A stretch of 24,932 nucleotides of DNA from a virus, in IMG/VR virus record IMGVR_UViG_3300042350_002613, positions 1 to 24,932 of that record, one strand, 5' to 3'. Positions 222 through 18,405 of the stretch are shown piece after piece (within the stretch, counting starts at the first letter, position 1; every line of letters starts with the position of its first letter). A program made the translations under genes and the position numbers. The notes under the pieces were generated by a model. It was not told the DNA's origin, searched no databases, and saw nothing but the letters and a program-made list of their open reading frames with translations.

Positions 222-1160
222 ATGTTCAATCCCCAACACACCCTCTATGTGGAAAAGTATCGTCCACAATCACTTGACACGTATATTGGAAACGAAACAA
301 TCAAGGAAACGTTCAAGAGATACCTACAATCAGGTGATGTACCACACCTTCTTCTTTATGGTGATGCCGGTAGTGGTAAGACAACACTTGCAAAGATTGT
401 AGCCAACACAATTTCAAAAGACAATTACATTTACATAAATGCTTCCGATGAGAACTCCATTGATACCGTCCGAGACAAAATCAAGCAGTTCGCATCATCT
501 ATTGGTTTCGGTGGTTTGAAGATTATCATTCTCGACGAGTCTGATTATCTCACTCCAAATGCACAAGCTGCTCTCCGTAACATCATGGAGACGTTCAGCA
601 AGACAACACGATTTATCCTAACGTGTAATTACGTGGACAAGATTATTGACCCGATTCAATCTCGGTGTCAAATCTTCAACATCGTTCCTCCATCTAAGAA
701 AGATGTTGCAGTTCACACGATGGGAATTCTTGAATCGGAAGGTGTGGAGTTCTCAAAGGAAGATTTAGCACAAATCATCAACATGACTTATCCTGACATT
801 CGTCGTGTACTGAATACAGTTCAACGTTGTATTCTCGATGGTAAGATGCAACTTGATAAGTCAACTCTTGTTCAGAATAACTTTTACTCAACAGTTGTTG
901 ACGTATTAAAGTCTGGTAAGAATAAGAAAGAAAAGTACACAGAGATTCGTCAGATTCTTGCTGACAACTCAATCCGTGATTACAACCCACTCTTCCGTTA
1001 TCTGTATGATAATGTAGAGGAGTTCGCTAATGGGTTTGTGTCTACCGCGATTCTTATTATCGCAGAATCACAATACAAAGATGCAATGGTAGTAGACCAT
1101 GAAATTAATGCGATGGCGATGTTCATCCAACTCATTATGGAAATAGACCAAAGAAAGTAA
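222..1160 (+). CDS. 44: Sliding-clamp loader ATPase subunit (T4 gp44-like)
   Basis: AAA+ ATPase of the replication factor C type, 312 residues against 319 for T4 gp44. Visible motifs are the N-terminal EKYRPQ box (11-16), Walker A GDAGSGKTT (47-55), Walker B IIILDESD (101-108), sensor 1 TCN (134-136) and the arginine-finger motif SRC (147-149). In T4 four copies join one gp62 to open the gp45 clamp and load it at primer ends, using ATP. The gp62-like partner lies downstream (2187-2639), separated by two genes. An AAGG about 7 bases upstream supports the ATG at 222. All motifs are intact, so the protein should be active. Confidence 0.95.
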   Translation: MFNPQHTLYVEKYRPQSLDTYIGNETIKETFKRYLQSGDVPHLLLYGDAGSGKTTLAKIVANTISKDNYIYINASDENSIDTVRDKIKQFASSIGFGGLKIIILDESDYLTPNAQAALRNIMETFSKTTRFILTCNYVDKIIDPIQSRCQIFNIVPPSKKDVAVHTMGILESEGVEFSKEDLAQIINMTYPDIRRVLNTVQRCILDGKMQLDKSTLVQNNFYSTVVDVLKSGKNKKEKYTEIRQILADNSIRDYNPLFRYLYDNVEEFANGFVSTAILIIAESQYKDAMVVDHEINAMAMFIQLIMEIDQRK

Positions 1161-1161
1161 G

Positions 1162-1926
1162 ATGGAGATAAACAAGATATATAATGAAGATTGTTTGGAG
1201 ACAATGAAAAGAATACCAGATGGATTCATTGATTTGGTTGTAACTTCTCCACCTTATGATAACTTACGCCAGTATAACGGTTATTCATTTGATTTTGAAA
1301 ATACAGCAAAAGAATTATATCGAATCGTTAAAAATAGTGGTGTAGTTGTTTGGGTAGTTGGTGATGAAACATCAAATGGAAGTGAGTCTGGTACTTCATT
1401 TAAACAAGCACTTTACTTCAAACAGATTGGATTTAACTTACATGATACGATGATATACGAGAAAAATTCACCGGCATATCCTGCATCTAAAAAATCTAAT
1501 AGATATACACAGATATTTGAGTATATGTTTGTATTATCGAAAGGTAAACCATTTGCAAATTTGATATGTGACAAACCAAACAAATGGTATGGACATAAAG
1601 ACTTTTCAGGCAAACTAAAAAATCCAGTTCCAGAATTTTCTCCAAGAACAAACATTTGGAAATATACCACATCGTTTAATGGTGTCTATCACCCTGCACC
1701 TTTTCCAGAACAATTGGTGGAAGACCATATATTATCTTGGAGTCAAATAGGTGAGATTGTATATGACCCTTTTATGGGAAGTGGAACTACTGCTAAGATG
1801 GCGTTGATGAACAGTCGTAAATTTATTGGTAGTGAAATATCGAATGAATATTGTGATATAGCCAATAATAGAATTAAAGATATATGTGCAGTTGATTTGA
1901 TGAATCTAAATAAATTTTTTGAATAG
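1162..1926 (+). CDS. DNA methyltransferase (N4-cytosine / N6-adenine, TSPPY class)
   Basis: SAM-dependent amino-methyltransferase of the beta arrangement. The catalytic motif TSPPY is at residues 28-32, and the SAM-binding motif DPFMGSGTT is near the C-terminus at 202-210, followed by the GSEI motif. The length (254 residues) is normal for a single-chain modification enzyme. No restriction endonuclease is adjacent, so it is probably a solitary methylase that protects or marks phage DNA. The target base and recognition site cannot be read from sequence: SPPY leans to N4-cytosine, but TSPPY enzymes of both kinds exist. The start lies one base after the gp44 stop. Its position between the two clamp-loader genes is unlike T4, where 44 and 62 are adjacent, and suggests an insertion. 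Confidence 0.92.
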   Translation: MEINKIYNEDCLETMKRIPDGFIDLVVTSPPYDNLRQYNGYSFDFENTAKELYRIVKNSGVVVWVVGDETSNGSESGTSFKQALYFKQIGFNLHDTMIYEKNSPAYPASKKSNRYTQIFEYMFVLSKGKPFANLICDKPNKWYGHKDFSGKLKNPVPEFSPRTNIWKYTTSFNGVYHPAPFPEQLVEDHILSWSQIGEIVYDPFMGSGTTAKMALMNSRKFIGSEISNEYCDIANNRIKDICAVDLMNLNKFFE

Positions 1927-1939
1927 AAGGGAAATAACT

Positions 1940-2206
1940 ATGAGCAATGTATTTGATATTGGTGGGGGACAACCACCACAACAAAAGGTAAATGTGAATT
2001 TGAACGAGGCACAAGATTTGACGTGTCCTAATTGTGGAAGTCACTTCTTCAACACAGTATTTATGTTCAAGAAACTATCGGCACTTGTGTCACCAAATGG
2101 TAGAGAATCTTTGATTCCTATTGAAACTTTCGCGTGTATTGAATGTGGAACAATTCCAAAAGAACTTCTACCAAAGGTCCCAGGTAATGGCTCGGAACTT
2201 ATTTGA
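1940..2206 (+). CDS. Small zinc-ribbon protein, conserved phage type
   Basis: 88 residues starting at ATG 1940, chosen over an upstream TTG because AGAAGGGA sits just before it at a normal distance. Two knuckles, CPNC (Cys29, Cys32) and CIEC (Cys66, Cys69), would bind one zinc ion. Between them lies a KLSALVSPNGRE stretch which I recall from unnamed proteins of marine T4-like phages. Its function is unknown; single zinc ribbons often bind nucleic acid or replication or transcription proteins. The last 20 bases overlap the start of the gp62-like gene, implying translational coupling and perhaps a link to the clamp loader. Confidence 0.8.
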   Translation: MSNVFDIGGGQPPQQKVNVNLNEAQDLTCPNCGSHFFNTVFMFKKLSALVSPNGRESLIPIETFACIECGTIPKELLPKVPGNGSELI

Positions 2207-2639
2207 TTTAATTAAGGGTGTGACCAAAGATAAGATTAAATGGGAAACCCTTGCCGAAGAAGAACAGAAGACGTGGAATAACTTTATTGTTACACGTTGG
2301 TTTTCTATGGAGATGGAATTAACAGATGCCGTGAATGACTTTCAAAAGTATAGTAACGGCATCCTTACTTCCAAAGATTACTATAAGCTACTCCATGATA
2401 TTTTACCAAAGACAACATTTTATCTGAAGTACACAAAGAAAAAGAAAAAGATAGATATAGATTCGCAATTTGTAGATTTATTCTGTCAGCATTATCAACT
2501 TGGTAAGAAAGTAATTTTTGAGTATATTACAGACCTTGTAAGAATAAATCCAAGCGAACTTGTTTCTGTTTTGGAATCTTACGGAACCAAGAAAGAAGAC
2601 GTAGAAAAATTCAAGAAACAAATAAAGACATTACAATGA
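2187..2639 (+). CDS. 62: Sliding-clamp loader small subunit (T4 gp62-like)
   Basis: 150 residues from ATG 2187, which follows AAAGG at 2173-2177 and lies inside the previous gene's end. A longer reading from 2121 would run through that gene and lacks support. The N-terminal part (a WNNFIVTRWFSM stretch followed by a lysine-rich FYLKYTKKKKK segment) resembles, by recall, the short gp62 of cyanophage-type myoviruses rather than the 187-residue T4 protein. It has no ATPase motifs, as expected for the single non-catalytic subunit that joins four gp44 copies. Position downstream of the gp44-like gene supports the call. Its stop overlaps an ATG at 2636. Confidence 0.78.
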   Translation: MARNLFDLIKGVTKDKIKWETLAEEEQKTWNNFIVTRWFSMEMELTDAVNDFQKYSNGILTSKDYYKLLHDILPKTTFYLKYTKKKKKIDIDSQFVDLFCQHYQLGKKVIFEYITDLVRINPSELVSVLESYGTKKEDVEKFKKQIKTLQ

Positions 2640-2650
2640 GGACAACAAAG

Positions 2651-3028
2651 ATGGCAATAAAAGAAATTGACTTGGGTAAAAAGAAAGATGAGAGTGACAT
2701 CATTGCTCAAATGGAAGAGAAGTTTCCAATTATGACTACGGACTTTAAGAGGATTCAGCGCGAACAGTATGAACTCTTTTGCCGTAAGCAATCGAACTAT
2801 GGACCAGATAATATTTCATTAGGAACAACTCTTGAAAGAGAAAACGATAGAAAGTTATCACTTCAAGGTTTGTTCTTCCGATTGAATGATAAAATCAATC
2901 GTTATAAGCAAATGATTATGTTTGGTTCTGTGGATGCCGTTGGTGAATCACTTGAAGATACATTCAAAGATATTTCAGTTTACGGTATCATTGCACAACT
3001 CGTTCAAAACGGGAAGTGGGGTAAGTAA
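2651..3028 (+). CDS. DUF1599 / Nmad1-like protein
   Basis: 125 residues from ATG 2651, preceded by GAGGA at 2638-2642 with an 8-base spacer. An in-frame ATG at 2636 overlaps the gp62 stop but has a poorer ribosome site. Conserved-looking stretches are EFCRK-type ELFCRKQSNYGPDNISLG (41-58) and LEDTFKDISVYGIIAQ (101-116). These match my memory of DUF1599, also called nucleotide modification associated domain 1, a helical family common in phages. The biochemical activity is not established. Placement beside a DNA methylase, a nuclease and an IMPDH-family enzyme fits a role in nucleotide or DNA modification, but that is inference. Confidence 0.72.
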   Translation: MAIKEIDLGKKKDESDIIAQMEEKFPIMTTDFKRIQREQYELFCRKQSNYGPDNISLGTTLERENDRKLSLQGLFFRLNDKINRYKQMIMFGSVDAVGESLEDTFKDISVYGIIAQLVQNGKWGK

Positions 3029-3930
3029 TGTCTTCTTCAAGAATTTCCTTCTCACAATATCAAATGTGGAAGGGATGTCCTCATCGTTGGAAACTAAATT
3101 ATATTGATAAGGTTTCCGTACCTTCACCATCTATTGCACTCGTGTTTGGAACTGCCATGCACGAAGTTCTGCAAATGTATGTGGAGATATTATATCGTTC
3201 TACGATTGAAGAAGCAAATTCACTTCCACTCGAAGACCTCCTAAAAGAAAAGATGGGTGTGGAGTATAAGAAGATGTTGACTGAAAACAATGAACAACAC
3301 TTTTCCAATCCAGATGAAATGCAGGAACATCTTATAGATGGTATTGAAATCATTCGTTGGTTCAAGGCACATCGTGAAAAGTTCTTTATGAAAAAGGGAT
3401 GGGAACTTGTTGGTATTGAATTACCAATCAATATCATACCACTCGAATCAAATCCAAATGTTCGTCTCGTTGGTTTTCTTGACTTGGTAATGCGAGATTT
3501 GAAAACAGGCAAGATTCACATCTACGATTTCAAAACTTCAACAAGTGGTTGGAATAAATACACAAAGGCAGATAAGGTAAAAACATCACAACTTGTTTTG
3601 TATAAGACCTTCTATGCAAAGCAATTCGATATTCACCCCGATGATATTGAGATTGAGTATCTTATTTTGAAACGTAAGATTGATGAGAATGCAGAGTATG
3701 CTGCAATGAGAAATCGTGTTCAACGGTTTGCACCTTCACATGGAAAGGTATCGCAAAAACAAATCCTGAAAGAGATTCAAACATTTGTTGAGACTGCATT
3801 TGATTCAGAAGGTAACAAGAGAACAGACATTTACTATCCTGCAATTGAAGGTGAGAAGGCCAAGAATTGCCGATGGTGTGAGTTCAAAGATAAAGATGAT
3901 TTATGTCCAATAAAGAATAGGGTTCAATAA
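3028..3930 (+). CDS. PD-(D/E)XK nuclease with probable Fe-S cluster (Cas4/RecB-like)
   Basis: 300 residues. The RecB-type nuclease core is visible: GTAMHEVL with His45, GFLDLV with Asp152, YDFKTS with Asp167 and Lys169, and the QLVLY motif (188-192). One cysteine near the N-terminus (Cys17, in GCPHRW) and three near the C-terminus (Cys281, Cys284, Cys293) reproduce the iron-staple arrangement of Cas4, AddB and Dna2, which holds a 4Fe-4S cluster. A single-strand DNA exonuclease role in recombination or replication-fork processing is likely. There is no CRISPR array or other cas gene here. The ATG overlaps the previous TAA by one base, and the next gene overlaps by one base. Confidence 0.88.
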   Translation: MSSSRISFSQYQMWKGCPHRWKLNYIDKVSVPSPSIALVFGTAMHEVLQMYVEILYRSTIEEANSLPLEDLLKEKMGVEYKKMLTENNEQHFSNPDEMQEHLIDGIEIIRWFKAHREKFFMKKGWELVGIELPINIIPLESNPNVRLVGFLDLVMRDLKTGKIHIYDFKTSTSGWNKYTKADKVKTSQLVLYKTFYAKQFDIHPDDIEIEYLILKRKIDENAEYAAMRNRVQRFAPSHGKVSQKQILKEIQTFVETAFDSEGNKRTDIYYPAIEGEKAKNCRWCEFKDKDDLCPIKNRVQ

Positions 3931-4961
3931 TGAAGTACGCATATACATTTGATGATATTCAAATTATTCCAAAGTATAGTGAAGTAGATAGTCGTGGTAA
4001 ATGTAATCTTGTAACAAACTTTACAAAACAATATAAGATTGGTACACCACTTGTTGCTTCACCAATGGATACTGTAACCGAATACAACATGGCAATAACA
4101 ATCGCATCATATGGTGGGGTCGGTGTAGTTCACCGATTCATGACCATTGAAAGACAGGCAAATCAAATTCGTAAGATTAAAGAACAAGAGAAGTTAGTAG
4201 CCGGCGCAATTGGTGCAACAGCTGACTACAAAGAACGTGCACAAGAACTTGTAAACGCAGGTGCAATCGTTCTTCTTATTGATGTTGCCCACGGTAACAC
4301 AAAACAAGTTCGTGATGCAATTGCTTGGTGTAAACAAAATCTGCCAAACTATGTGGATGTAATTGCAGGTAATGTTGCTACATATGAAGGTGCAAAAAAT
4401 CTGGTAGAGTGGGGTGCCGATGCCATTCGTGTTGGTATTGGAAATGGTTCTCTTTGTGAAACAAGAATTAGAACTGGTGTTGGTATTCCGCAAGTCACTG
4501 CTCTTATTGAGTCTATTCGTGCCGTAGAAGAATCAGGAATTGATGTTCCAATTATTGCAGATGGTGGTGTGAGAATGACAGGTGATGTTGCCAAGGCACT
4601 TTCACTTGGAGCAGATTCTGTAATGTTGGGTTCACTCCTTGCGGGTACTCGTGAATCGCCAGGTGAAATTCACCGAATGGGAATGTGGCCGAACGAACAA
4701 CTTTTCAAGAAGTATCGTGGTTCTGCATCCGCTGAAGTAAAACAAGTTCATGGTTTAGAAGAAAAGAATGTAGAAGGTAATTCAAAGTTAATTCCTTACA
4801 AGGGTAAGGTTGAACGCGTCATAAATGACATCAATGACGGTGTTCGTTCTGCCATGTCTTATGTTAATGCAACAACAATTAGAGAATTTCAAGTTAAGTC
4901 CGAACACGTTTTGATTACACAGAATGGTTTGATTGAAGCTAAACCCCACTTGTTATTGTAA
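3930..4961 (+). CDS. IMP dehydrogenase / GMP reductase family enzyme, no CBS domains
   Basis: 343-residue TIM-barrel oxidoreductase. The substrate loop [15 protein letters not shown] carries the catalytic Cys176 and Thr178. Asp211 in IIADGGV and the [15 protein letters not shown] phosphate-binding region are present. The usual bacterial IMPDH has about 490 residues with two CBS domains; here they are absent, giving the length of a GMP reductase (about 345). The flap ([11 protein letters not shown], 282-292) lacks the Arg-Tyr pair that acts as general base in IMPDH, favouring GMP reductase. The EAKPH tail, however, resembles the IMPDH C-terminus. The product may therefore interconvert GMP and IMP or make XMP, changing the guanine nucleotide pool. 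It overlaps the nuclease gene by one base. Confidence 0.88.
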
Positions 4962-5018: not shown

Positions 5019-6422
5019 ATGGCAAAGAAAAAGATTCTCCTCTTATCGGATGACCTCCGACTTACATCAGGTATTGCCACTGTCTCTCGTGATATGGTAC
5101 TTGGTACGGTTGCACAATATGATTGGATTCAAGTTGGTGCAGCAATTAATCATCCGGACAAAGGTAAATTATTAGACCTATCTGATGATGCAAAATCAAT
5201 AACAGGTGTTCAAGACGCATCGGTTAAAATTCTATGTAACGATGGGTATGGTGACCCATTCTTGATTCGTCGTCTTATTGATGCCGAAAAGCCGGATGCA
5301 ATAGTCCATTTCACAGACCCACGTTTTTGGGGATGGTTGTATAATATGGAACACGAAATCCGTACAAATATTCCGTTGATATATTTGAATATATGGGATG
5401 ACATTCCAGACCCGTATTGGAATAAAGAAGCATATTCAAGTTGTGATTTGCTCATGGCAATATCGAAGCAAACCTATGGAATTAATCACCGCATCCTTAC
5501 AAGGTTTGAAGGTGAAGTAAGTCCTACACGAATCACATATGTTCCACATGGTATTAATACAGAAATGTTTTATCCAATCACTCAAGGTGATAAAGCATGG
5601 GAACCGTATGTAAATGAGACAAATAAAATTCGTGGTAACAACAAAGATAAGTTTGTTGTATTCTGGAATAATAGAAATATTCATCGCAAGCATCCTGGAG
5701 ACGTTATCCTTGCATACAAAGAAATGTGTGAACTGATTGATGCGAATGGTGGTAATGCCGCAAACGATTGTTTACTTCTCATGCACACACAACCCATCGA
5801 CCCGAATGGCACAGACCTAACTGCGGTTGTTGGTGAATTGTGCCAAGAATATCCAGTCATGTTTAGTGATAAAGTTATTCCAAGTGAGGCACTTAACATT
5901 CTTTATAATGTTGCTGACATTACTTTGAACATGACTTCGAATGAGGGATTTGGTCTTGGAACTGCAGAATCACTTTCATCGGGTACACCTATTGTTGTAA
6001 ATGTAACTGGTGGTATGCAAGACCATTGCGGATTCATTAATCCTAAAACAGGAAAGTTCTTCTCTGCCGATGATTACGTTGAAGTAAAGACACTTCATCG
6101 AAAAGATAAATGGGGAGATTTACAACATGGTGAGTGGGTTAAACCAGTTTGGCCATCCAATATTTCACTTCAAGGTTCTGTACCAACTCCTTATATTTTC
6201 GATGATCGAGCAGATTTCCGTGAAGTTGCACAGAAGTTGTATGAATGGTACAAGACACCAAAGGCAGAACGTAAAGCATCCGGCATCAAGGGACGTGAGT
6301 ATATCATGAATCCAGAAGTTGGTATGAGCAGACAACTTATGTGTGAACGTGTTGTAGAAAGTGTTGAAGATTGTTTCAAGAACTTCACACCAAGAAATCG
6401 TTATGAATTACATTTAGCGTGA
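5019..6422 (+). CDS. GT4-family glycosyltransferase (GT-B fold)
   Basis: 467 residues. The start is set by AAAGG at 5008-5012, six bases before the ATG. The N-terminal Rossmann half opens with a KKILLLSDDLRLTSGIA strand-loop. PHGIN (176-180) marks the domain boundary, and the C-terminal half carries the EX7E nucleotide-sugar motif (Glu309 and Glu317 in EGFGLGTAESLSSGTP). This is the usual layout of retaining GT4 enzymes, which transfer a sugar from a nucleotide donor. No membrane segment or signal peptide is seen, so it should act in the cytoplasm. It is the first gene of the glycan cluster. Donor and acceptor cannot be deduced. Confidence 0.9.
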   Translation: MAKKKILLLSDDLRLTSGIATVSRDMVLGTVAQYDWIQVGAAINHPDKGKLLDLSDDAKSITGVQDASVKILCNDGYGDPFLIRRLIDAEKPDAIVHFTDPRFWGWLYNMEHEIRTNIPLIYLNIWDDIPDPYWNKEAYSSCDLLMAISKQTYGINHRILTRFEGEVSPTRITYVPHGINTEMFYPITQGDKAWEPYVNETNKIRGNNKDKFVVFWNNRNIHRKHPGDVILAYKEMCELIDANGGNAANDCLLLMHTQPIDPNGTDLTAVVGELCQEYPVMFSDKVIPSEALNILYNVADITLNMTSNEGFGLGTAESLSSGTPIVVNVTGGMQDHCGFINPKTGKFFSADDYVEVKTLHRKDKWGDLQHGEWVKPVWPSNISLQGSVPTPYIFDDRADFREVAQKLYEWYKTPKAERKASGIKGREYIMNPEVGMSRQLMCERVVESVEDCFKNFTPRNRYELHLA

Positions 6423-6429
6423 GGATAAT

Positions 6430-7737
6430 ATGAGTTATAGACCAGAATTAGTTTTTTGTGGGCCAGTTGCAACACGCAGTGGATATGGCGAACACGCCAG
6501 AGACCTTCTTCTTTCTCTATTCGAGATGGACAAGTTTAATATCAAAGTAATCTCTATTAATTGGGGAGAGACACCCATGAATGCTCTCAACCCAGAAATA
6601 CCAGACCATAAAAAAATATTGGACTCAATTATACCGGGACTTCAAACACAACCGGAAGTTTGGGTACAATGTACTATCCCAAATGAATTCCAGCCAGTTG
6701 GAAAGTATAACATCGGAATAACTGCCGGTGTAGAAACAGATACTTGCTCTGGTGAATGGATTGAGGGTTGTAACAGAATGAATCTTGTCATCGTACCATC
6801 CAAACATGCAAAGGATGTATTTCTAAATACGAAATATGAAAAGAGAGATAAGCAAACTGGTCAACCGATGGGGAATATTGAAGTTACAGTTCCAATTGAA
6901 GTTCTTCACGAAGGTGTCCGTCTTGATGTCTATGGTAAAAATATTCCATTCGAATCTTCAATAAAAGAAACACTCGACGATATAAAGGAAGATTTTTGTT
7001 ACCTATTCGTTGGACACTGGTTGAGAGGTGACTTCGGTCAAGATAGAAAAGATTTGTCAGGATTGATTTACACTTTCTTGGAAACGTTTGGTGATACAGA
7101 GAATCCACCTGCACTTCTATTAAAAGCATCCAGTGGTGGTTTTTCTATAACTGACAGGAGTAAAACACTTGAAAAGATTTCTCTTATTAAGCAAATGGTA
7201 AAGAAGAAGAATCTTCCAAACATCTATCTTCTTCATGGTGATTTAACAGACCAAGAAATGAATACTCTTTACAATCATGAAAAAGTAAAGGCATTTGTTT
7301 CATTCACAAAGGGCGAGGGTTATGGTAGACCAATCGCAGAATTTATTATGTCTGGTAAACCTGTTATTGTATCTGGATGGAGTGGTCAAGTTGATTTCGT
7401 AAATCCAGCATTCCATACTTATCTCGATGGTGAACTTAAACCAATTCATGATAGTGCAGTTTGGGAAGGTGTTCTAAACAAAGGAACCAGTTGGTTCACT
7501 GTGAATTACCAATCTGCCGCCGATACACTCCGTAAGGTTCAAAAGAAATACAGCTCGTATCTTTCTGAATCAAAGAAGTCTGTTAATCAAATGGAAGTGA
7601 AATTCTCATACGATGCAATGGTTAAGAATTTCGATACAATGTTGGATAAGTATCTTCCAAAGTTCGCACAAAAGATGTCTCTTAACTTGCCTCAATTAAA
7701 GAAACTCCCAACCTTAAAGAAAGTTGAAACGGAATGA
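6430..7737 (+). CDS. GT4-like glycosyltransferase (GT-B fold)
   Basis: 435 residues, with a GAGG site at 6421-6424 ahead of ATG 6430. The N-terminus opens with a donor-domain-like CGPVATRSGYGEHARD segment. Residues VLHEGV (158-163) precede the C-terminal domain, and the EX7E pair is Glu296 and Glu304 in EGYGRPIAE. The protein shares architecture with the preceding enzyme but little direct sequence, so the two probably add different sugars or make different linkages. The C-terminal 40 residues are lysine-rich and look helical. It ends in an ATGA overlap with the following GT2 gene, implying coupled translation. Confidence 0.88.
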   Translation: MSYRPELVFCGPVATRSGYGEHARDLLLSLFEMDKFNIKVISINWGETPMNALNPEIPDHKKILDSIIPGLQTQPEVWVQCTIPNEFQPVGKYNIGITAGVETDTCSGEWIEGCNRMNLVIVPSKHAKDVFLNTKYEKRDKQTGQPMGNIEVTVPIEVLHEGVRLDVYGKNIPFESSIKETLDDIKEDFCYLFVGHWLRGDFGQDRKDLSGLIYTFLETFGDTENPPALLLKASSGGFSITDRSKTLEKISLIKQMVKKKNLPNIYLLHGDLTDQEMNTLYNHEKVKAFVSFTKGEGYGRPIAEFIMSGKPVIVSGWSGQVDFVNPAFHTYLDGELKPIHDSAVWEGVLNKGTSWFTVNYQSAADTLRKVQKKYSSYLSESKKSVNQMEVKFSYDAMVKNFDTMLDKYLPKFAQKMSLNLPQLKKLPTLKKVETE

Positions 7738-8360
7738 TTTCTTATACAATAACCGCTTGCAATGAAGATAGAGAGTTGGATAAACTACTGAATGTGATTC
7801 GTGTAAACTTAAAGGACACAGACGAGGTAGTTATCCAACTCGACCAAAATAATTCAACAGATGAAGTTAGAAAGGTATGTTCGATATATCAAGAAAGAAT
7901 ACCAATATTAAAGGTTATACAATTTCCACTCAACAATGATTTTGCATCATTCAAGAATAACTTGAAGAGCCATTGTACAAAAGAATGGATATTCAACATT
8001 GATGCCGATGAAATACCATCAGCCTTTCTACTTGAAAATATCCACACCATTCTTGAATCAAATTCTGATTTAGACCTTTTAATTGTTCCGAGGTGGAATA
8101 TTGTTGATGGTATAACTGAACGTCATATCGATTCTTGGCGTTGGAGATATGACGAGTGGGGTAGAATAAATTGGCCAGATTGGCAAATGAGAATCTATCG
8201 AAACAAGGAATCAATATCTTGGAAGAATAAAGTACATGAAAAGATTGATGGATATGAAAAATATTCATTCCTTCCAGAAGATAAGGATTATTGTCTTTTC
8301 CATAACAAGACAATCCAAAAACAAGAACAACAAAATAATTTCTATGATACAATAGTTTAA
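7734..8360 (+). CDS. GT2-family glycosyltransferase (GT-A fold)
   Basis: 208 residues. It begins directly with the GT2 first strand (ISYTITACNEDRELDKLL) and has a DADE metal-binding DxD motif at 90-93, preceded by the typical KEWIFNID strand. A WPDWQMRIYRN segment around residues 140-160 matches the acceptor-side part of the waaE/kdtX-like GT2 group that extends lipopolysaccharide cores, by recall. It is shorter than many GT2 proteins but has the complete catalytic domain. The start overlaps the previous stop as ATGA. Confidence 0.85.
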   Translation: MISYTITACNEDRELDKLLNVIRVNLKDTDEVVIQLDQNNSTDEVRKVCSIYQERIPILKVIQFPLNNDFASFKNNLKSHCTKEWIFNIDADEIPSAFLLENIHTILESNSDLDLLIVPRWNIVDGITERHIDSWRWRYDEWGRINWPDWQMRIYRNKESISWKNKVHEKIDGYEKYSFLPEDKDYCLFHNKTIQKQEQQNNFYDTIV

Positions 8361-8361
8361 T

Positions 8362-9123
8362 ATGAAAAATCTTCTAATTGGTGCCATAAGCGGGAATTAT
8401 TCCCAAAGTGATGTTCAACGATGGATTGAATCATCGGATGGTTTTGAAATCAAAAGAGTCCTCTTTCTTTACAACGATGAAAATGAGGAACTTAAAAAAT
8501 ACTTATCAACAAAAAATGTGGATGTGATAATTCCAACTCATGATGCGTATAACAATGAAGTGGATAAGTTTCAAACTCACACTGGAGAGATGACAATATC
8601 ATCGTCTTACAATCTAGTTCATAACATAAGATTTTATCATATATGGCAATACTTGACAGAGAATGATTATGAAAAAATTCTGATTACGGATGTACGAGAT
8701 GTATATTTTAACGATGACCCATTTAGCAAGATACCGTCCGATAAGATAATTGCATCGAGTGAAGTTATAAAATATGAAGATGATAAATGGAATGAACGCC
8801 ATCTGTATAACAATTTATCTATGATTGGTTATCATTCTTTGATTTCAAATCAAGTTTATAATGTTGGTGTATTCGGTGGTAATGCAAAATTAGTTCAAGA
8901 CATATGCGCAGACATTTATCTAATGTCAATAGGTAAACCTCTTGTTGCAGACCAAACCTCTTTCAATTATTTGATACAAACATCCCATAAAGATAAAGTT
9001 GTATTTACAGATTTAAAAGATAAGTTTGCAGTTCATCTTCATGTTGTTGCAAATGGTATGGTTCAATTTGATTTATCAACCTTAAACGAATATTCAATTG
9101 TTCACCAATACGATAGGTTATGA
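8362..9123 (+). CDS. Putative GT-A glycosyltransferase (DVRD motif)
   Basis: 253 residues. The ITDVRDVYFNDDPF segment (108-121) has the shape of a nucleotide-sugar transferase metal-binding motif: hydrophobic strand, then D-x-x-D, then residues leading to DPF. A second conserved-looking block, VYNVGVFGGN, follows about 60 residues later, and an ADQTSFN stretch after that, both common in GT-A enzymes that act on surface glycans. The CAZy family is not recognised. One base separates it from the previous stop, and its end overlaps the GT7-like gene by four bases. Confidence 0.7.
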   Translation: MKNLLIGAISGNYSQSDVQRWIESSDGFEIKRVLFLYNDENEELKKYLSTKNVDVIIPTHDAYNNEVDKFQTHTGEMTISSSYNLVHNIRFYHIWQYLTENDYEKILITDVRDVYFNDDPFSKIPSDKIIASSEVIKYEDDKWNERHLYNNLSMIGYHSLISNQVYNVGVFGGNAKLVQDICADIYLMSIGKPLVADQTSFNYLIQTSHKDKVVFTDLKDKFAVHLHVVANGMVQFDLSTLNEYSIVHQYDRL

Positions 9124-9839
9124 AATACTCCATAATAATATCATACAGAGATAGAGAAGAACATTTATCTAAATTACTCCCACGTCTTCATTCCATCTTC
9201 AACAAAACAGATTATGAAATAATTGTTGTTGAACAAGATGACAAGGACAAGTTCCAAAAGAATTCTCTTTACAATATTGCGGCTCTTCGTGCAAAGGGAG
9301 ACCTCTTGATATTTCACGATGTGGATTATTATCCATCGGATAATATCACTTTCAATTCTTATTCCACACAAAAAGATTTACCACTATACCCAGTTGGTAA
9401 AGTTATATTTTTAGATGAGAATGATTCACCAAGAGATTACAAAGATATTCCAGCTGGATATAGAAACTTTCATGTTGATGTTGGTGACCATTCTGGTGGA
9501 ATATTTGTTTTGCATAAAGATTTGTTTCATGATATAAAAGGACTTAATCCTTATTATCGTGGATGGGGTAAAGAAGATGATGATACCAGAGAGCGATTCC
9601 GATTATTTGGAAAAGATTGGTTTAGAAATAAGGAAGGATTGTTTTATGCCTTGTATCATAAAGATAGTAAGCCAGATGATAATGACACCGATTTTATAAA
9701 CAATCATATAATGTTATCGCAGATTGAAAAAAATATAGAGTTGGGATATAATGATGTCACTGCTGATGTTGAAGAATTTGGTGGAGACGATGGAGTTCGT
9801 TGGTTGAAAGTTAAAAATTTTAAATACAGAGAAATATGA
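9120..9839 (+). CDS. GT7-like beta-1,4-galactosyltransferase family protein
   Basis: 239 residues carrying the full run of signatures of the animal-type beta-1,4-galactosyltransferase fold: YRDRE (9-13), VVEQ (36-39), FHDVDYYP (65-72) with the metal-binding DVD, SGGIFVLHKDLF (125-136) and the YYRGWGKEDDD block (145-155) equivalent to WGWGGEDDD. The enzymes of this family transfer Gal or GalNAc from UDP to a terminal GlcNAc or xylose. The animal enzymes have a transmembrane anchor and stem; this protein has only the catalytic domain and no signal, so it should work in the cytoplasm. Donor specificity cannot be told. It overlaps both neighbours by ATGA. Confidence 0.88.
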   Translation: MKYSIIISYRDREEHLSKLLPRLHSIFNKTDYEIIVVEQDDKDKFQKNSLYNIAALRAKGDLLIFHDVDYYPSDNITFNSYSTQKDLPLYPVGKVIFLDENDSPRDYKDIPAGYRNFHVDVGDHSGGIFVLHKDLFHDIKGLNPYYRGWGKEDDDTRERFRLFGKDWFRNKEGLFYALYHKDSKPDDNDTDFINNHIMLSQIEKNIELGYNDVTADVEEFGGDDGVRWLKVKNFKYREI

Positions 9840-10444
9840 GAAACCTACAATTAATATCAAATTACTTTATACCTTACAGAATATTGGACATCGGTGCAAA
9901 CGTCGGACAATTCCATCAACTCTGCAAAGAATCTTTTCCTGATAGTTTTATATTCAGTATCGAGGCATCTCCTTCCTGTGAATCTTCTCTTAAATCAATA
10001 ACACCGAATTATTTAATTGCGATGTTGACAAAGGATAATTCCGTTTATGATTTCTACATAAGAAAGGGTGACCCAACTTGCACTGGAAATTCCATCTATA
10101 AAGAACTGACGGAATTTTATTCCGATGACCAAGTTGAAATTTTAAATCAGCATGGAGTTAGATTGGATGATTTATTTACAGACGATTCGGAATTTGATTT
10201 AATTAAAATGGACACACAGGGTTCCGAGCTTGATATTATCTCTGGTGGTATTTCTATTTGTAAAAAGGCAAAGGGGATTTTACTTGAAGTGTCTATGACT
10301 CAATATAATGAAGGTGCCCCGTTATATGAAGATGTGATTTCATTCATGGCCAACATAGGATTTGTTCCAGTTGAAACATTGGATGAATCAAGAAATCATG
10401 GTTCTTATCAAAAAGATATTCTCTTCATAAATAAAAATAAGTGA
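9836..10444 (+). CDS. FkbM-family SAM methyltransferase
   Basis: 202 residues. Motif I DIGANVGQF (18-26) binds SAM, an acidic IEAS follows motif II, and the FkbM hallmark IKMDTQGSEL (123-132) is intact. FkbM enzymes O-methylate hydroxyls, very often on sugars of polysaccharides and glycoproteins. In this position, flanked by sugar transferases with an ATGA overlap upstream, it probably caps or decorates the glycan made by the cluster. The acceptor is unknown. Confidence 0.9.
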   Translation: MRNLQLISNYFIPYRILDIGANVGQFHQLCKESFPDSFIFSIEASPSCESSLKSITPNYLIAMLTKDNSVYDFYIRKGDPTCTGNSIYKELTEFYSDDQVEILNQHGVRLDDLFTDDSEFDLIKMDTQGSELDIISGGISICKKAKGILLEVSMTQYNEGAPLYEDVISFMANIGFVPVETLDESRNHGSYQKDILFINKNK

Positions 10445-10449
10445 ATTAT

Positions 10450-10827
10450 ATGAATATTGAAGTATCAAATGGTGAAATCTTAGACAAACTTTCTATATTA
10501 GATATAAAATCTAAGAGAATAAATGACACGGATAAATTAAAAAACATCGAGAAGGAAAGGCAAGTATTATTGCCATTCTATGATTTAATAGTTACAACAA
10601 ATGAGCTATCGAAAAAATTCGAAGAGTTATTGGACATCAATATAAAACTATGGGAAATAGAAGATTCAATTCGTGAAAAAGAATGGAATAAACAATTTGA
10701 TTCTCAATTTATAGAGTTAGCTCGTTCAGTTTATCTTTGCAATGATATTCGTGCAGAAATAAAAAGAGAGATAAACACACTCTCGAATTCAAATTTGATT
10801 GAAGAAAAATCTTATGCAAAAACGTAA
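10450..10827 (+). CDS. DUF6165-like protein
   Basis: 125 residues from ATG 10450; a GTG at 10441 in the same frame would add three residues but has no better ribosome site. It is largely helical and charged. The opening MNIEVSNGEILDKLSILDIK, the middle LWEIEDSIREKEW and the EEKSYAKT end match my recall of DUF6165, small proteins often found beside glycosyltransferase and nucleotide-sugar genes in bacteria and phages. No catalytic motif is visible, so a scaffold or regulatory role within the glycan pathway is possible. The end overlaps the next gene by 14 bases. Confidence 0.7.
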   Translation: MNIEVSNGEILDKLSILDIKSKRINDTDKLKNIEKERQVLLPFYDLIVTTNELSKKFEELLDINIKLWEIEDSIREKEWNKQFDSQFIELARSVYLCNDIRAEIKREINTLSNSNLIEEKSYAKT

Positions 10828-11713
10828 ATGTTTAATAATAACACATGGGTTCTTTGGTGATATTATATTCGCAAGTTCTATTGCGAAAAAACTAAAGGAG
10901 GAATCTCAATTTGATGAGGTAGATTATTTGATAGGATTTCCACAGATGGAAAGGTTGATGCAAAACAATCCATACACCAATAATGTCTATGTATCAAATT
11001 ATCCTTCACCTTCTCCTTATAATAATTCAATAGATGAAACCGTTTATGATAAGATTATTAGATTGGAAAGTTTGTCATTTCAAATTCCTCCTCCAATTGA
11101 ATTTCAAAAATTTGCTGGTGTAAAAAATGTAGAGCCAATATATTCGGTTTATACTGAAAGTGAATATGATGATATTGCGAGAAAGTATATTGAATCAATA
11201 TCATCAAATGGAAAAAAGACAATAGCCATTATGAACAATTGGAAATCAAAAACATATTTGTTTTCTGAAAAACAATATCAAGAAGGCATTGACGTACCTA
11301 ACCTCGGATATGGTGGGAGACACCGAGACACTGATACTATAATTAAAAAACTATCCGAGACTTTCAATATTGTTTTAGTTGGTATGCCGGATGGCATTTC
11401 TCAACAACAGACAAGTCTATTAGAAAATAACGATGAAAAATCTATTTTGTTTGAATGTTCTCTAATGAAATATTGTGATTCATTTGTTGGAACGGAAGGT
11501 GGTTTGTGTAATCTTGCCGCTGGGGTTGGAACGAGAACAATCATTACCGGTGATTTTGTTCATCAATTATATGGATGGAATGGTGTATTAAAGAAAATTG
11601 AAGAACCTAAATTGGGGCCAAAATATTATTTCAATGATGTTGGTCATGTTACATTAAATCCGTATATTACAGATGATATGGTTGTGGAACAAATAATCAA
11701 AATACTAAATTGA
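10814..11713 (+). CDS. GT9-like (heptosyltransferase-type) glycosyltransferase
   Basis: 299 residues from ATG 10814, nested in the previous gene's end; a TTG five codons earlier is less likely. The N-terminal GFFGDIIFASSIAKKLKEE loop is the GT9 signature (heptosyltransferases have GDxL/I..P.l..L), and the C-terminal GTEGGLCNLAAGVGTRTI block corresponds to the GxGGGxxH-like donor-binding region near residues 220-240. GT9 enzymes usually add heptose or related sugars to lipopolysaccharide cores. The central part is divergent, so family membership is likely but the donor sugar is not established. Confidence 0.75.
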   Translation: MQKRKCLIITHGFFGDIIFASSIAKKLKEESQFDEVDYLIGFPQMERLMQNNPYTNNVYVSNYPSPSPYNNSIDETVYDKIIRLESLSFQIPPPIEFQKFAGVKNVEPIYSVYTESEYDDIARKYIESISSNGKKTIAIMNNWKSKTYLFSEKQYQEGIDVPNLGYGGRHRDTDTIIKKLSETFNIVLVGMPDGISQQQTSLLENNDEKSILFECSLMKYCDSFVGTEGGLCNLAAGVGTRTIITGDFVHQLYGWNGVLKKIEEPKLGPKYYFNDVGHVTLNPYITDDMVVEQIIKILN

Positions 11714-11726
11714 GAGTGGGAACAAT

Positions 11727-12449
11727 ATGAATGTTGCATTGTGTATGTTTGGACAACCGAGAGTTATAAGAAATCCTTTTACTTTTAATTCTCATGAAGA
11801 GCATATCATAAAGAAATATAATGCAGATGTTTATTGTCATTCTTGGATTTCAAAAGAGCCAAAGCAATTCGAATATTCCGATTGGGTAAATTCCAATCAT
11901 AGAAGTACAGAAGACATCTCTGCCTCAGAAATAATACTTGAGAGATATAAACCAAAGGATTTTTTATTTGAGGAACCTCGTCACTTTTCTCTAACAGGAA
12001 AGTCAAGGGAGTTAGCCGAGAACAGTGGTAGATGTCCTATGGGTGTTTATTACTGGAGTGAAAACAATGAACACAATCTAATGTCTCATCTATATTCTAT
12101 ATCAAAAGTAATTAAGATGTCAAACCGTATAAAGTATGATTGGATAATCTTATCGAGGTACGATAATCACATAGAACATATCCCTTCTCTTTATGAATTG
12201 GACTCTAATAATTTGTACTTGAGTAATCAGTTTCCACACTTCGTGGATGTTTTAATGATGGGTGGGCAAAATGAAATGAATACGATTGCTTGCTATGATG
12301 ATATACCGGAATTGTGTGGTGAGATAAATTATTTTACACCTGAAGAATTCAAGCGTGCATCATTCAATCGTAAATTTGAAAGAGAAATTAGGGTAGACAT
12401 ATCGGTTGGTATTGCCAGAACAAACACACTAGAGGGATTACAAAAATGA
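11727..12449 (+). CDS. Putative glycosyltransferase, FGQPR/SRYD family (copy 1)
   Basis: 240 residues. VALCMFGQPR at the N-terminus and DWIILSRYDN (138-147) recur in the gene at 14537 as IALCLSGQAR and DFVIRSRFD (137-144), both in the same order and at almost the same spacing. The second block has the layout of a DxD-type metal site preceded by a hydrophobic strand. I recall such proteins from polysaccharide clusters and large DNA viruses as putative glycosyltransferases. The HSW after the first strand corresponds to HTW in the other copy. The start has a GTGGGA site upstream. The end overlaps the fusion gene by ATGA. Confidence 0.6.
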   Translation: MNVALCMFGQPRVIRNPFTFNSHEEHIIKKYNADVYCHSWISKEPKQFEYSDWVNSNHRSTEDISASEIILERYKPKDFLFEEPRHFSLTGKSRELAENSGRCPMGVYYWSENNEHNLMSHLYSISKVIKMSNRIKYDWIILSRYDNHIEHIPSLYELDSNNLYLSNQFPHFVDVLMMGGQNEMNTIACYDDIPELCGEINYFTPEEFKRASFNRKFEREIRVDISVGIARTNTLEGLQK

Positions 12450-13807
12450 TAAAGTTTATTATTTTTGATTTAGATGGAGTTTTAGTAGAAGCTAAAAATA
12501 TTCATTACGATGCATTAAATGAATCACTTGATGCGGAGTATCGAATATCATGGGACGAACATCTAAGTAAGTACGATGGTCTAAAAACAAATCAGAAGTT
12601 GGAATTATTAACATTCGATAAAGGATTAGACCCATCCTTGCACAAAACCGTTTGGGAAAAAAAACAAAAGATTACTCTTGAAAAATTAAATGAGTTACGA
12701 GAATCAAAACAACTGATAACCTGCATGTCAAGGTTATCGAGAGATGGTTATAAGATTGCCTGTTGCAGTAATAGTATTCGCAAAACAGTGTTGACAGTTT
12801 TATCAAAATTGGGAATAATACAATACTTCGATTTAATTCTTTCAAATGAAGATATTAAGAACAGTAAACCACATCCCGAAATTTATTGGAAAGCAATATC
12901 GATGATGGGGTTCCTACCAGAAGAAACTTTAATAGTTGAAGATTCTCCGGTTGGACTGTTGGCGGCAAATAGAACTCATTCAAAAGTTATTCGTGTAGAG
13001 AATCCAAACGATGTAACATATGAAAACTTACATAAATATTTTAACGGTGATGATATGAAATTGATACCTAAATGGAAAAATGAAAAACTGAATGTTCTAA
13101 TACCAATGGCCGGTGCCGGTAGTAGATTTGAACAAGCTGGTTATACTTTCCCAAAACCATTAATCGAAATAAATGGAAAGCCAATGATACAGATGGTTGT
13201 GGAAAACTTAAACATCGATGCGAATTACATATATGTTGTTCAGAAAAAACATAGAGAAAAATATAACTTAGATTCACTTCTTAATTTGATAACGCCAAAT
13301 TGCAAGATAGTTGAAGTCGATGGTGTAACAGAAGGTGCTGCCTGTACTGCACTGATGGCGAAGGAATATATTGATAATGATAATCCATTATTTTTTGCCA
13401 ACTCTGACCAGTTTGTGGAATGGGATTCGAATGAGTTCATGTATAAAATGCAAGAAACAAATTCTGATGGTGGGATTGTTACATTCAATTCAACTCATCC
13501 GAAATGGTCATTTATTAAATTAGATGATAATGGTTTTGTTGTTGAGGTAGCTGAGAAGAATCCAATATCTGATGTGGCCACAGTTGGTTATTATTATTGG
13601 AAACATGGTGGTGATTTTGTAAAATATGCCGAACGTATGATTGAATCAAATATACGAGTGAATAATGAATTTTATGTTTGTCCTGTATTCAATCAAGCAA
13701 TTCAGGATAATAAAAAAATCAGAAACTTCAATATAAAGAAAATGTGGGGACTTGGAACCCCAGAAGATTTAAATCATTTTTTAGAAAATTATAAAATTGA
13801 GGAGTAA
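12446..13807 (+). CDS. HAD phosphatase - sugar nucleotidyltransferase fusion
   Basis: 453 residues with two enzyme domains. Residues 1-200 are a haloacid-dehalogenase phosphatase: DLDGV with nucleophile Asp8 and acid Asp10, SNS (108-110), Lys141 in SKPHPE, and the VEDSPVG acidic loop (164-170). Residues 215-453 form a nucleotidyltransferase: PMAGAGSRF (220-228), FPKPLI with Lys237 (235-240), and FANSDQF (317-323), the metal-site region. The two activities fit consecutive steps that dephosphorylate a sugar phosphate and activate a sugar as NDP-sugar. The reading frame is continuous across the linker, so the fusion is real in this sequence. The sugar is unknown. Confidence 0.88.
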   Translation: MIKFIIFDLDGVLVEAKNIHYDALNESLDAEYRISWDEHLSKYDGLKTNQKLELLTFDKGLDPSLHKTVWEKKQKITLEKLNELRESKQLITCMSRLSRDGYKIACCSNSIRKTVLTVLSKLGIIQYFDLILSNEDIKNSKPHPEIYWKAISMMGFLPEETLIVEDSPVGLLAANRTHSKVIRVENPNDVTYENLHKYFNGDDMKLIPKWKNEKLNVLIPMAGAGSRFEQAGYTFPKPLIEINGKPMIQMVVENLNIDANYIYVVQKKHREKYNLDSLLNLITPNCKIVEVDGVTEGAACTALMAKEYIDNDNPLFFANSDQFVEWDSNEFMYKMQETNSDGGIVTFNSTHPKWSFIKLDDNGFVVEVAEKNPISDVATVGYYYWKHGGDFVKYAERMIESNIRVNNEFYVCPVFNQAIQDNKKIRNFNIKKMWGLGTPEDLNHFLENYKIEE

Positions 13808-15921: not shown

Positions 15922-16629
15922 ATGAAACTGAAAATCATATACAGAATATCTGACGCTGGGTATAACAAAATAAAACCTGCGTATGTTAATAACGAAAATT
16001 GTCTTTCAAATGCGATAAAGGTTTTTCCATTTGAAAAATACGATTGGTCTATTATTGCAGACAACGTATCTCAAAAAACAATCAATATGATGTTGAAGTA
16101 TGTTCCGTCTGAATGTATTTCTTATGTTAGTGTTGGTAACGGTGCAGGTACATTTAATTTAGCATTAGATGAGGCACTGCAATATGATGAAAAAGGTATT
16201 GTTTATTTCATGGAAAATGACTATATTCATAAACCAAATGCAGATTTGATTCTGTTCGAAGGTTTTGGGTTGGGTGCAGATTATATTAGTCTGTATGATA
16301 ATCCTGATAAATACATACCAGCTTCTCGCGGTGGTAACAAATTTATCGGTGAAGATGGTGGCGAAGAAACAAAAGTTTATTTGACTAAATCTTCCCATTG
16401 GAAATTAACGAATAGTGCAACGATGACATTTGCATCGTATGTATCTACTTTGAAAGATGATGAAGAAATATTTCGCAAATGGACTAACGTTGGTGGATAC
16501 CCACAAGATTTTAGATTGTTTGTTGAATTAAGAGAAAAAGGAAAGAGTTTATTATCACCGATACCGGGTTATTCTACTCACGGTGAGAGTGCTTGGTTAT
16601 CACCACTAACAGATTGGGAAAAGATATGA
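15922..16629 (+). CDS. Putative GT-A glycosyltransferase (MENDYIH motif)
   Basis: 235 residues. The opening (KIIYRISDAGYNKIKP), the SIIADNVS strand, an NGAGTFNLALDEAL helix and YFMENDYIHKPNA (95-107) follow the order of a GT-A enzyme, with ENDY in place of DxD. It reads like a conserved family seen in phage and bacterial surface-glycan loci, but I cannot give a family name. The C-terminal part contains a long aromatic, glycine-rich segment (SPIPGYSTHGESAWLSP). It overlaps the GT2 gene that follows by ATGA. Confidence 0.6.
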   Translation: MKLKIIYRISDAGYNKIKPAYVNNENCLSNAIKVFPFEKYDWSIIADNVSQKTINMMLKYVPSECISYVSVGNGAGTFNLALDEALQYDEKGIVYFMENDYIHKPNADLILFEGFGLGADYISLYDNPDKYIPASRGGNKFIGEDGGEETKVYLTKSSHWKLTNSATMTFASYVSTLKDDEEIFRKWTNVGGYPQDFRLFVELREKGKSLLSPIPGYSTHGESAWLSPLTDWEKI

Positions 16630-17414
16630 TTTCAGTTGTTATCCCCTCATATAGAAATCCGAAGTGTCTTGATATTTGTTTACAATCGGCTTTGGAAAAT
16701 CAATCGGACAAGAATGAAATAACCGTCGTGATTGATGGATTTGTAGAGGAATCTCAACACATAGTTGAAAAATATAAAGATAGAGTTTCGTTTATACCAC
16801 TCGAAACAAATTCAGGTATGCAACACGCCTTAAATATTGGTGTGTATCGTTCTTCAAACGAATGGATATTGATTGTTAATGATGATAATGTTTTTCCAAA
16901 AGATTGGGATAGATTATTACATCAAGACAATAGAGATAAGTTAGTTATCACTCCAAATCAAATCGAACGTTCACAGAGCATATTTAATTTTGTTACAAGA
17001 GATTTCGGTGGAGTTGATGACTTTCAATTTGAAAATTATACAAATGAAGAACCATCATATCGAAAAGAACTATTGACAGATGATGGTGAGATATTTCCTT
17101 TTTATATGCAAAAGAAATATTACATGGCTGTTGGTGGTTTTGATACAATTTATGATTCTCCATTTATTTGTGATTGGGATTTCTTCTTAAAGTTAGAATT
17201 GATTGGTATAGAATTTTTAAGAACTAGAAAATTAAACTTCTATCATTTTGGAAGTATGGCAACGAAGAACGGTAGTGAACGAGATAGATTTGTACAAAGT
17301 GAAAGAGATGCTGCTGAATCGTTCAAATACAAATGGGGATTTTATCCATTAAGGAATATGAACAATAGCCATACACCGGGTAAGGGAAAAATAATGGGAA
17401 TACGTTATGAGTAA
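16626..17414 (+). CDS. GT2-family glycosyltransferase
   Basis: 262 residues from ATG 16626, which overlaps the previous stop as ATGA; an upstream in-frame start at 16593 lies wholly inside the previous gene. It begins with the classic GT2 strand ISVVIPSYRNPKCLDICLQS, has ITVVIDGF, and carries the metal-binding NDDNVFP (85-91). A YMAVGGFDTIY segment and CDWDFFLKLELIG near residues 170-200 match the GGFDE and EDxDLxxR acceptor-side motifs. All features of an active inverting GT-A transferase are present. It overlaps the epimerase gene by eight bases. Confidence 0.88.
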   Translation: MISVVIPSYRNPKCLDICLQSALENQSDKNEITVVIDGFVEESQHIVEKYKDRVSFIPLETNSGMQHALNIGVYRSSNEWILIVNDDNVFPKDWDRLLHQDNRDKLVITPNQIERSQSIFNFVTRDFGGVDDFQFENYTNEEPSYRKELLTDDGEIFPFYMQKKYYMAVGGFDTIYDSPFICDWDFFLKLELIGIEFLRTRKLNFYHFGSMATKNGSERDRFVQSERDAAESFKYKWGFYPLRNMNNSHTPGKGKIMGIRYE

Positions 17415-18405
17415 GAATGTTTTGATAACAGGTGTAGCTGGTCTTCTCGGTTCTCGTCTTGCCGATTGGATTGTACAAAATAAACCTGAATATAAAGTAA
17501 TCGGTATCGATAATCTTGAAGGCGGTTACATAGAAAATGTAAATGATGATGTTGTGTTTAGAAAGATTGATTGCACGGATTCAGTTGGAATAAATTCTCT
17601 GTTTGAAGAATATCAACCAGAATATGTATTTCATTTTGCTGCATATGCTGCAGAGGGATTATCTCCATTCATCCGTTGTTTTAATTATACAAACAATCTA
17701 CTCGCTACCGCAAACATTGTTAATAACTGTATAAGACATGACATCAAACGTCTTGTATTTACATCCACTATGGCAGTGTATGGTCATGGCAATCCTCCGT
17801 TCGATGAGTCACATCAACCTGCACCGATTGACCCATATGGTGTTGCAAAGTTTGCCTGTGAGCAAGATATTCAAATTGCAGGAGAACAACATGGTTTGGA
17901 CTGGTGTATTATTAGACCACATAATGTATATGGTATTAAACAAAATATTTGGGACAAGTATCGTAACGTTCTTGGTATTTGGATGTACCAACACCTAAAT
18001 GGAAAGCCAATGACAATATATGGCGATGGTACACAAACACGAGCATTTAGTTATATTGATGATTGCCTTGAACCACTTTGGAAATCAGCAGTCGATGAAC
18101 GTGCATCAAAACAAATAATTAACTTGGGTGGAACATTTGAGCATACCATAAATGATGCCAATAATATTCTACGAGAAGTGATTGGTGGTGGAGAAGTTAT
18201 TTATCTTGAACCACGTCATGAAGTAAAGGCCGCTCATCCAACATGGAAAAAATCAATTGAGATTTTAGATTACTCAGATAATACTACGTTAAAGGGTGGA
18301 CTATCTGAGATGTGGGAATGGGCGAAACAACAACCAAATAGAGAACAATTTATTTGGGACAGTTATGAATTGGATAAGGGAATATATTCATTTTGGAGAA
18401 AATAA
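17407..18405 (+). CDS. NAD-dependent sugar epimerase/dehydratase (extended SDR)
   Basis: 332 residues. GVAGLLG (9-15) is the GxxGxxG NAD-binding loop, STM (120-122) and YGVAK (Tyr144, Lys148) form the catalytic Ser/Thr-Tyr-Lys set, and IRPHNVYG and TRAFSYIDDC are the usual substrate-side motifs. The overall pattern is that of UDP-hexose 4-epimerases (GalE/WbpP group). It could supply UDP-galactose or UDP-GalNAc to the GT7-like enzyme in the same cluster, though the exact sugar is not shown by sequence. The last 40 residues (WEWAKQQPNREQFIWDSYEL) form a helical tail typical of this group. Confidence 0.92.
   Translation: MSKNVLITGVAGLLGSRLADWIVQNKPEYKVIGIDNLEGGYIENVNDDVVFRKIDCTDSVGINSLFEEYQPEYVFHFAAYAAEGLSPFIRCFNYTNNLLATANIVNNCIRHDIKRLVFTSTMAVYGHGNPPFDESHQPAPIDPYGVAKFACEQDIQIAGEQHGLDWCIIRPHNVYGIKQNIWDKYRNVLGIWMYQHLNGKPMTIYGDGTQTRAFSYIDDCLEPLWKSAVDERASKQIINLGGTFEHTINDANNILREVIGGGEVIYLEPRHEVKAAHPTWKKSIEILDYSDNTTLKGGLSEMWEWAKQQPNREQFIWDSYELDKGIYSFWRK

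Follow-up and report, generated by a model that had tools for sequence, protein, structure and literature searches.

A phage-only clade of GT7 glycosyltransferases with a fixed, once fused partner enzyme and allele exchange between related phages

Within a virus record of 24,932 bases (probably a fragment), termed here the window, two overlapping genes most likely encode a two-enzyme module that phages can swap within a glycan island. The second of these genes (positions 9120 to 9839, + strand) encodes, from an ATG start, a 239-residue GT7 glycosyltransferase that consists of the catalytic domain only, as judged from Pfam, alignments, a structural model and its structure match; the first (8362 to 9123, + strand), which overlaps it by 4 bp, encodes a 253-residue partner, termed here GTx, with a predicted GT-A fold nearest to that of family GT6. 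Swapping of the pair probably changes the sugars that a phage puts on itself or on its host. Phage GT7 genes have been catalogued before, both in PHROG 1721 and in BFVD, which holds phage GT7 entries, and a literature search on phage GT7 found nothing on the subject; what is new here is not GT7 in phages, but the surroundings of a phage-only GT7 clade, namely its fixed partner, a fusion with that partner and the exchange of alleles.

Profiles and the structural model both identify the 9120 to 9839 reading frame as a real GT7-family catalytic domain. Both Pfam halves of the family exceed their curated cut-offs and keep their order: PF13733 matches residues 2-76 (E = 2.6e-15; 56.7 bits against a cut-off of 27) and PF02709 matches residues 124-181 (E = 5.1e-10; 39.3 bits against a cut-off of 23). 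The GT7 signature blocks that a sequence-only reading of this DNA had picked out, including FHDVDYYP and GWGKEDDD, are present in order, and the profile search that it had proposed gives significant matches. Among PDB sequences the window protein matches beta4GalT1 and beta4GalT7 (best E ~1e-11), and a profile of the phage clade reaches the same enzymes at up to ~1e-18. The reading frame is not a chance one, because orthologues of 46-100% identity occur in 39 viral contigs and because the differences between the window gene and its counterpart in contig L003 (47, 27 and 113 at first, second and third codon positions, respectively) fall mostly at third positions, a pattern that points to purifying selection. 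The protein contains no hydrophobic stretch (the maximum 19-residue Kyte-Doolittle mean is 0.67) and its first residue aligns with bovine residue 180, within the catalytic domain, which agrees with its earlier description as a soluble, minimal version of the enzyme.

An AlphaFold model built from 19 relatives (mean pLDDT 93.5) superposes on bovine beta4GalT1 with a Z score of 25.0 (2.2 Å over 209 residues, at 28% identity) and on Drosophila beta4GalT7 with a Z score of 23.7; the top Foldseek matches are likewise beta4GalT7 (E 3e-15). Because phage residues 1-237 superpose on bovine residues 180-402, the phage protein corresponds to the catalytic domain alone, without the membrane anchor or stem of the animal enzyme. 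In other words, the predicted fold is the beta4GalT-type GT-A fold that had been proposed, shared with bovine and human B4GALT1 (CAZy family GT7) across the whole catalytic domain, with the DVD, GG and GWGxED motifs in order. Neither of the outcomes named beforehand as telling against the assignment (no significant profile match, or a fold lacking the GT-A metal site) was seen, the metal and base positions being conserved in the alignment.

Alignment with bacterial and animal GT7 enzymes places D67-V68-D69 at the DVD motif, the putative metal site, and K151-E152-D153 at the xED of GWGKED, with D153 at the position of the catalytic base. Within a 19-member core alignment of the phage clade FHDVD, GG (G126-G127 in the window) and GWGKEDDD are invariant, as is H180, which is followed at position 182 by Asp or His; H180-x-D182 are the putative C-terminal metal ligands, and the counterpart of bovine H347 is H180 according to MAFFT and D182, two residues away, according to HMMER. 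What the xED aspartate and the C-terminal histidine do in GT-A enzymes has been described (PMC7185993). The phage motif, H-x-(D/H), differs from the Met-x-x-His of B4GALT1 and is similar to the H-x-H-like motif of Drosophila and human beta4GalT7, to which the phage protein is 22-23% identical; the second His of that motif is Asp in the window and His in some relatives. Two further positions distinguish the phage enzymes from B4GALT1. His124, conserved in the core clade and seen at this position in none of the cellular GT7s aligned, replaces bovine Tyr289, the donor gate of beta4GalT1 that selects between Gal and GalNAc; and Trp312 is lost, its position being occupied by Arg, Lys, Ile or Val within the core clade.

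The clade to which the window protein belongs is seen only in viral contigs. A clade-profile scan of genome contigs found bacterial GT7s of only 25-33% identity, and 395 genomes from the phylum of a Chitinophagaceae bin yielded just distant matches, so no cellular donor was found. Among annotated phage records, a tblastn search with the window protein gave no match at 1e-5, so that the clade is unrepresented among the annotated phages searched; PHROG 1721 ('galactosyl transferase') is also a phage-encoded GT7 family, but its match to the window protein is weak (E 5e-8; residues 2-182; 33.8 bits). In a maximum likelihood tree the compact phage GT7s form a single clade (support 98/100) on a long stem, and the animal enzymes, represented by composites of PDB chain stretches, group weakly with Bacteroidota GT7s (96/79). 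The sequence-only reading had called the enzyme 'animal-type' and had asked for such a tree. This label is too specific and should be dropped: GT7C matches over the cut-off occur in 5 of 14 control genomes (ordinary bacteria), 51 of the 98 genomes examined in a single Bacteroidota family also have GT7C matches, and the phage enzymes form a clade of their own. An AU test, on a tree with long branches, does not reject a phage-plus-animal grouping either (p = 0.43); an animal origin by horizontal transfer is accordingly neither supported nor rejected.

Other GT7 architectures were encountered as well. Two-domain viral GT7s of about 490 residues (L027-L046) likewise carry DVD and GWGKEDDD and likewise occur on viral contigs, but they are 28-35% identical to the window protein, have an extra N-terminal domain and form a separate branch; in most of them the C-terminal GT7 domain carries an H-x-H motif, as in beta4GalT7. 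In one viral contig (L045, 34-858) the GT7 protein has a long tail of Thr-Pro repeats. A Chitinophagaceae bin contains two convergent, adjacent GT7 genes (L047, 5935-7576), whose products are the cellular GT7s that group with the animal enzymes in the tree described above.

GTx matches the PHROG 1579 glycosyltransferase family and contains the motifs TDVRDV, ADQTSFN and HQYDR. Its model (pLDDT 94.8) superposes on 1g8o with a Z score of 18.0 (3.2 Å over 211 residues; 11% identity), and its best 50 structure matches are all GT6 enzymes, that is, alpha-1,3-Gal/GalNAc transferases (Z up to 18.0; 11-14% identity). Sequence searches gave no Pfam match, no match to any PDB sequence, those of GT6 included, and a single partial match of 28% among annotated phages. 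Invariant GTx residues include D110 and D113 (of TDVRD), Q198 and H248. The invariant Gln198, within a DQxxxN motif, appears by eye to stand in the place of the GT6 catalytic Glu, which is E317 in bovine alpha3GalT and E192 in BoGT6a. GT6 enzymes lack a C-terminal metal His (PMC7185993), so that the invariant His248, which as a lead only is more reminiscent of GT8, also sets GTx apart from them. Membership in GT6, which the fold had suggested, was therefore rejected: there is no sequence match, the Glu appears to be Gln198, and His248 is invariant. Because of these last two features GTx is classified, on its sequence and model, as probably a retaining GT-A glycosyltransferase rather than as a GT6 enzyme.

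GTx is the fixed partner of the phage GT7 clade: it almost always adjoins GT7 and is once fused to it. Among 33 compact-clade loci, a GTx homologue is present in 31, mostly overlapping the GT7 start. Since these loci had been chosen by their GT7, the reverse search, from a GTx profile, is what matters. Every one of the 22 loci with a close GTx (>300 bits) has a GT7 nearby, whereas none of the 58 loci of remoter relatives (<250 bits), 43 of which have at least 1.5 kb of downstream sequence, has one; the 22 paired loci represent related phages and not 22 independent events. In 14 of these 22 loci the nearby enzyme is the 'B' form of GT7, a divergent variant with 39-44% identity. In contig L096 the two enzymes are fused as one 527-residue protein. 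Two further contigs (L091, 694-1992; L095, 3410-4705) encode a GT7 behind what by eye looks like an N-terminal methyltransferase-like domain, unlike the GTx-GT7 fusion. Across the 33 compact-clade loci the order GT4a-GT4b-GT2a-GTx-GT7 is conserved; the genes that come next vary from locus to locus and include FkbM and DUF6165 among others; at one locus (L171) the GTx-GT7 pair occurs without the GT4 and GT2 genes.

Comparisons of DNA between loci indicate that either GT7 alone or the GTx-GT7 pair has been swapped between related phages. The window and L003 are ~100% identical from 8241 to 9080 and 98% identical from 9081 to 9140, and then only 52-85% identical from 9141 through GT7, so that the break falls at the GTx/GT7 junction. 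L187 aligns to the window at 82% up to position 8347, and the alignment resumes at 10449; between the counterparts of these positions L187 carries a different GTx together with a GT7-B (HQVD, FYGG, GWGNEDED). Loci with GT7-B are L171-L176, L178-L181, L183-L185 and L187, and those that were read have HQVD for HDVD (the first Asp of the DxD being lost), FYGG and GWGNEDED; to judge from these motifs, GT7-B possibly uses a different donor. L094 carries a GT7-A plus a B-like copy with the motif QQVD (L094b).

The pair lies within an island that begins behind a phage core and whose genes, as listed here, are all on the + strand. Its conserved upstream part comprises two GT4-like glycosyltransferases, namely GT4a (5019 to 6422; a weak PF00534 match, homologous to a glycosyltransferase of Flavobacterium phage immuto) and GT4b (6430 to 7737; from sequence matches), and the GT2 enzyme GT2a (7734 to 8360; PF00535, E = 1.1e-9). 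Downstream of GT7 come an FkbM-type methyltransferase (9836 to 10444; PF05050), which overlaps GT7 by 4 bp and is a variable accessory found in 18 of the 33 loci; an accessory DUF6165 protein (10441 to 10827; PF19662); a conserved island protein without a Pfam match that is GT9-like by eye only (10799 to 11713; a homologue in 24 of 33 loci); a protein that joins a HAD phosphatase to a sugar-1-phosphate nucleotidylyltransferase, assigned to NDP-sugar supply (12446 to 13807; PF13419 and PF00483); a second GT2 enzyme (16593 to 17414; PF00535, E = 1.3e-18); an NDP-sugar epimerase/dehydratase (17407 to 18405; PF01370; PDB 4zrm, E = 4e-43), whose best solved relatives include UDP-glucose 4-epimerases; and a short, 280-residue nucleotide-sugar 6-dehydrogenase (18409 to 19251; PF03721 and PF00984; TIGR03026, 211.6 bits). 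The phosphatase-nucleotidylyltransferase fusion is a single 453-residue protein that is conserved in several related phages, and the dehydrogenase has a GGHCFPKD motif but gave no match to a C-terminal UDP-binding domain. The presence of the epimerase and the dehydrogenase suggests that NDP-sugars are produced or remodelled by the phage itself.

Ahead of the island (222 to 4961, + strand) lie genes for a clamp loader, a DNA methyltransferase, a clamp-loader-A-like protein, a PD-(D/E)XK exonuclease and an IMP dehydrogenase; the last (3930-4961, 343 residues) occupies the same place in the Microcystis phage Mel-JY01. The order of clamp loader, exonuclease and IMP dehydrogenase is common to both phages, and Mel-JY01, like the window, also has Nudix and deformylase genes, which marks the window as DNA of a T4-like tailed phage. 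The islands of immuto and Mel-JY01 likewise have GT4-GT4-GT2 genes behind a nuclease, and the resemblance of GT4b, GT4a and GT2a to immuto genes makes a host among the Bacteroidota a plausible guess. Profiles of GT7 and GTx had no match in the stretch examined of immuto and of the cultured phage Mel-JY01, at an otherwise syntenic locus. At the far end of the window, a gene running off the contig (23651-24931) encodes a protein with a signal-like start that looks secreted and, by eye, like a Bacteroidota cell-surface protein; it has no Pfam or NCBIfam match.

These observations are probably best explained, taken as a whole, by an exchangeable pair that contains an inverting GT7 and acts on a virion glycan. 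GT7 would be a cytoplasmic, metal-dependent, inverting enzyme that adds one beta-linked sugar to a short glycan from an NDP-sugar, probably a UDP-sugar; the metal-nucleotide would be bound by D69 and H180, together with D/H182, and D153 of the xED would serve as the base, activating the acceptor hydroxyl. GT7 and the upstream GTx would act as a pair, one making the acceptor of the other, within a phage glycan island of soluble GT4 and GT2 enzymes, a methyltransferase and NDP-sugar genes, and recombination between related phages, by exchanging the pair or GT7 alone, would alter the outer sugars of the glycan. A more specific version may be entertained tentatively: an obligate, sometimes fused GTx-GT7 module responsible for the outer disaccharide of the glycan, with lytic phages switching glycans by whole-allele exchange between GT7-A (HDVD, His124) and GT7-B (HQVD, Phe-Tyr).

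The most likely targets of the glycan would be phage structural proteins. A glycan added to these in the cytoplasm is favoured because none of the island proteins tested has a membrane-spanning stretch, and we infer on this ground that a virion glycan is to be preferred over modification of the host surface or of DNA. Mycobacteriophages encode glycosyltransferases that decorate their structural proteins, at least as relayed from Freeman et al. 2023 in PMC12619734 and PMC13313380. That precedent, from phages of different hosts, serves as an analogy only; together with the absence of membrane genes it is what the virion target would rest on, and the host could supply any membrane steps. Because the window is a fragment, other glycan genes may lie outside it.

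The strongest contender, which we nevertheless consider rather unlikely, is that the island acts on the infected cell and modifies its surface polysaccharide (capsule or lipopolysaccharide), for instance as a means of excluding superinfecting phages. Loci for surface polysaccharides typically contain genes of the kinds seen here (FkbM methyltransferase, NDP-sugar dehydrogenase, GT2 and GT4), and membrane enzymes could be borrowed from the host. The surface-polymer systems of the Gtr and Wzx/Wzy types, however, have membrane-spanning proteins, and among the island proteins tested there is no flippase, polymerase, phosphoglycosyl transferase, GtrA/GtrB-type membrane protein or hydrophobic segment; moreover, the replication genes in the window are T4-like, and none of its genes was recognised as an integrase.

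That GT7 is a plain beta-1,4-galactosyltransferase, transferring Gal to GlcNAc from UDP-Gal that the phage epimerase supplies, is unlikely. Its family and its beta4GalT fold are those expected, and an NDP-sugar epimerase belongs to the same island, PF01370 matches being present on 11 of the 12 long contigs that carry this clade. The sequence-only reading had placed the epimerase next to GT7 and had suggested UDP-Gal or UDP-GalNAc as donors and GlcNAc as acceptor. The epimerase in fact lies 7.6 kb further downstream, separated from GT7 by ten genes, the real neighbours being GTx and the FkbM gene, and at 104.8 bits against a GalE cut-off of 262.3 it is not assignable to GalE. Nor could it be upheld as a specific partner of GT7: it lies within the flanks of 9 of the 33 compact-clade loci, and its presence is uninformative because the PF01370 family also occurs in all 14 control genomes. 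With His124 in place of the gate Tyr and with residues other than Trp at the Trp312 position, donor and acceptor are not readable from the sequence; His124 would itself be compatible with UDP-Gal.

Hypermodification of phage DNA by the island glycosyltransferases appears quite improbable. T4 glucosylates hydroxymethylcytosine, and phages of the T4 type are among the relatives of the window phage. Some glycosyltransferases of viruses do decorate DNA, according to Pyle et al. 2024 as relayed in PMC12619734. Against this, no base-hydroxylating enzyme was recognised in the window (itself a fragment), and the size of the island and its methyltransferase and dehydrogenase genes suit a complex glycan better. 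Nor, to our knowledge, is GT7 a family of DNA glycosyltransferases. Finally, that GT7 is a decayed or non-catalytic scaffold for GTx, as the altered motifs of some phage relatives (HQVD and GWGNEDED in GT7-B, QQVD in L094b) might hint, is highly implausible, given that the window enzyme keeps every catalytic position, that the core clade is invariant there, and that its codon positions bear the mark of selection noted above.

A paired, exchangeable GT7 thus has implications beyond this one island. The phage clade offers a natural GT7 catalytic core of 239 residues, a practical enzyme lead within a family whose members are workhorses of glycan synthesis, and the differing donor-contact residues of the A and B alleles amount to an experiment of nature on how GT7 enzymes choose their donors. 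More generally, the pairing, the natural fusion and the exchange of alleles together provide a testable hypothesis as to how the phages of aquatic bacteria may vary the sugars that they display or impose.
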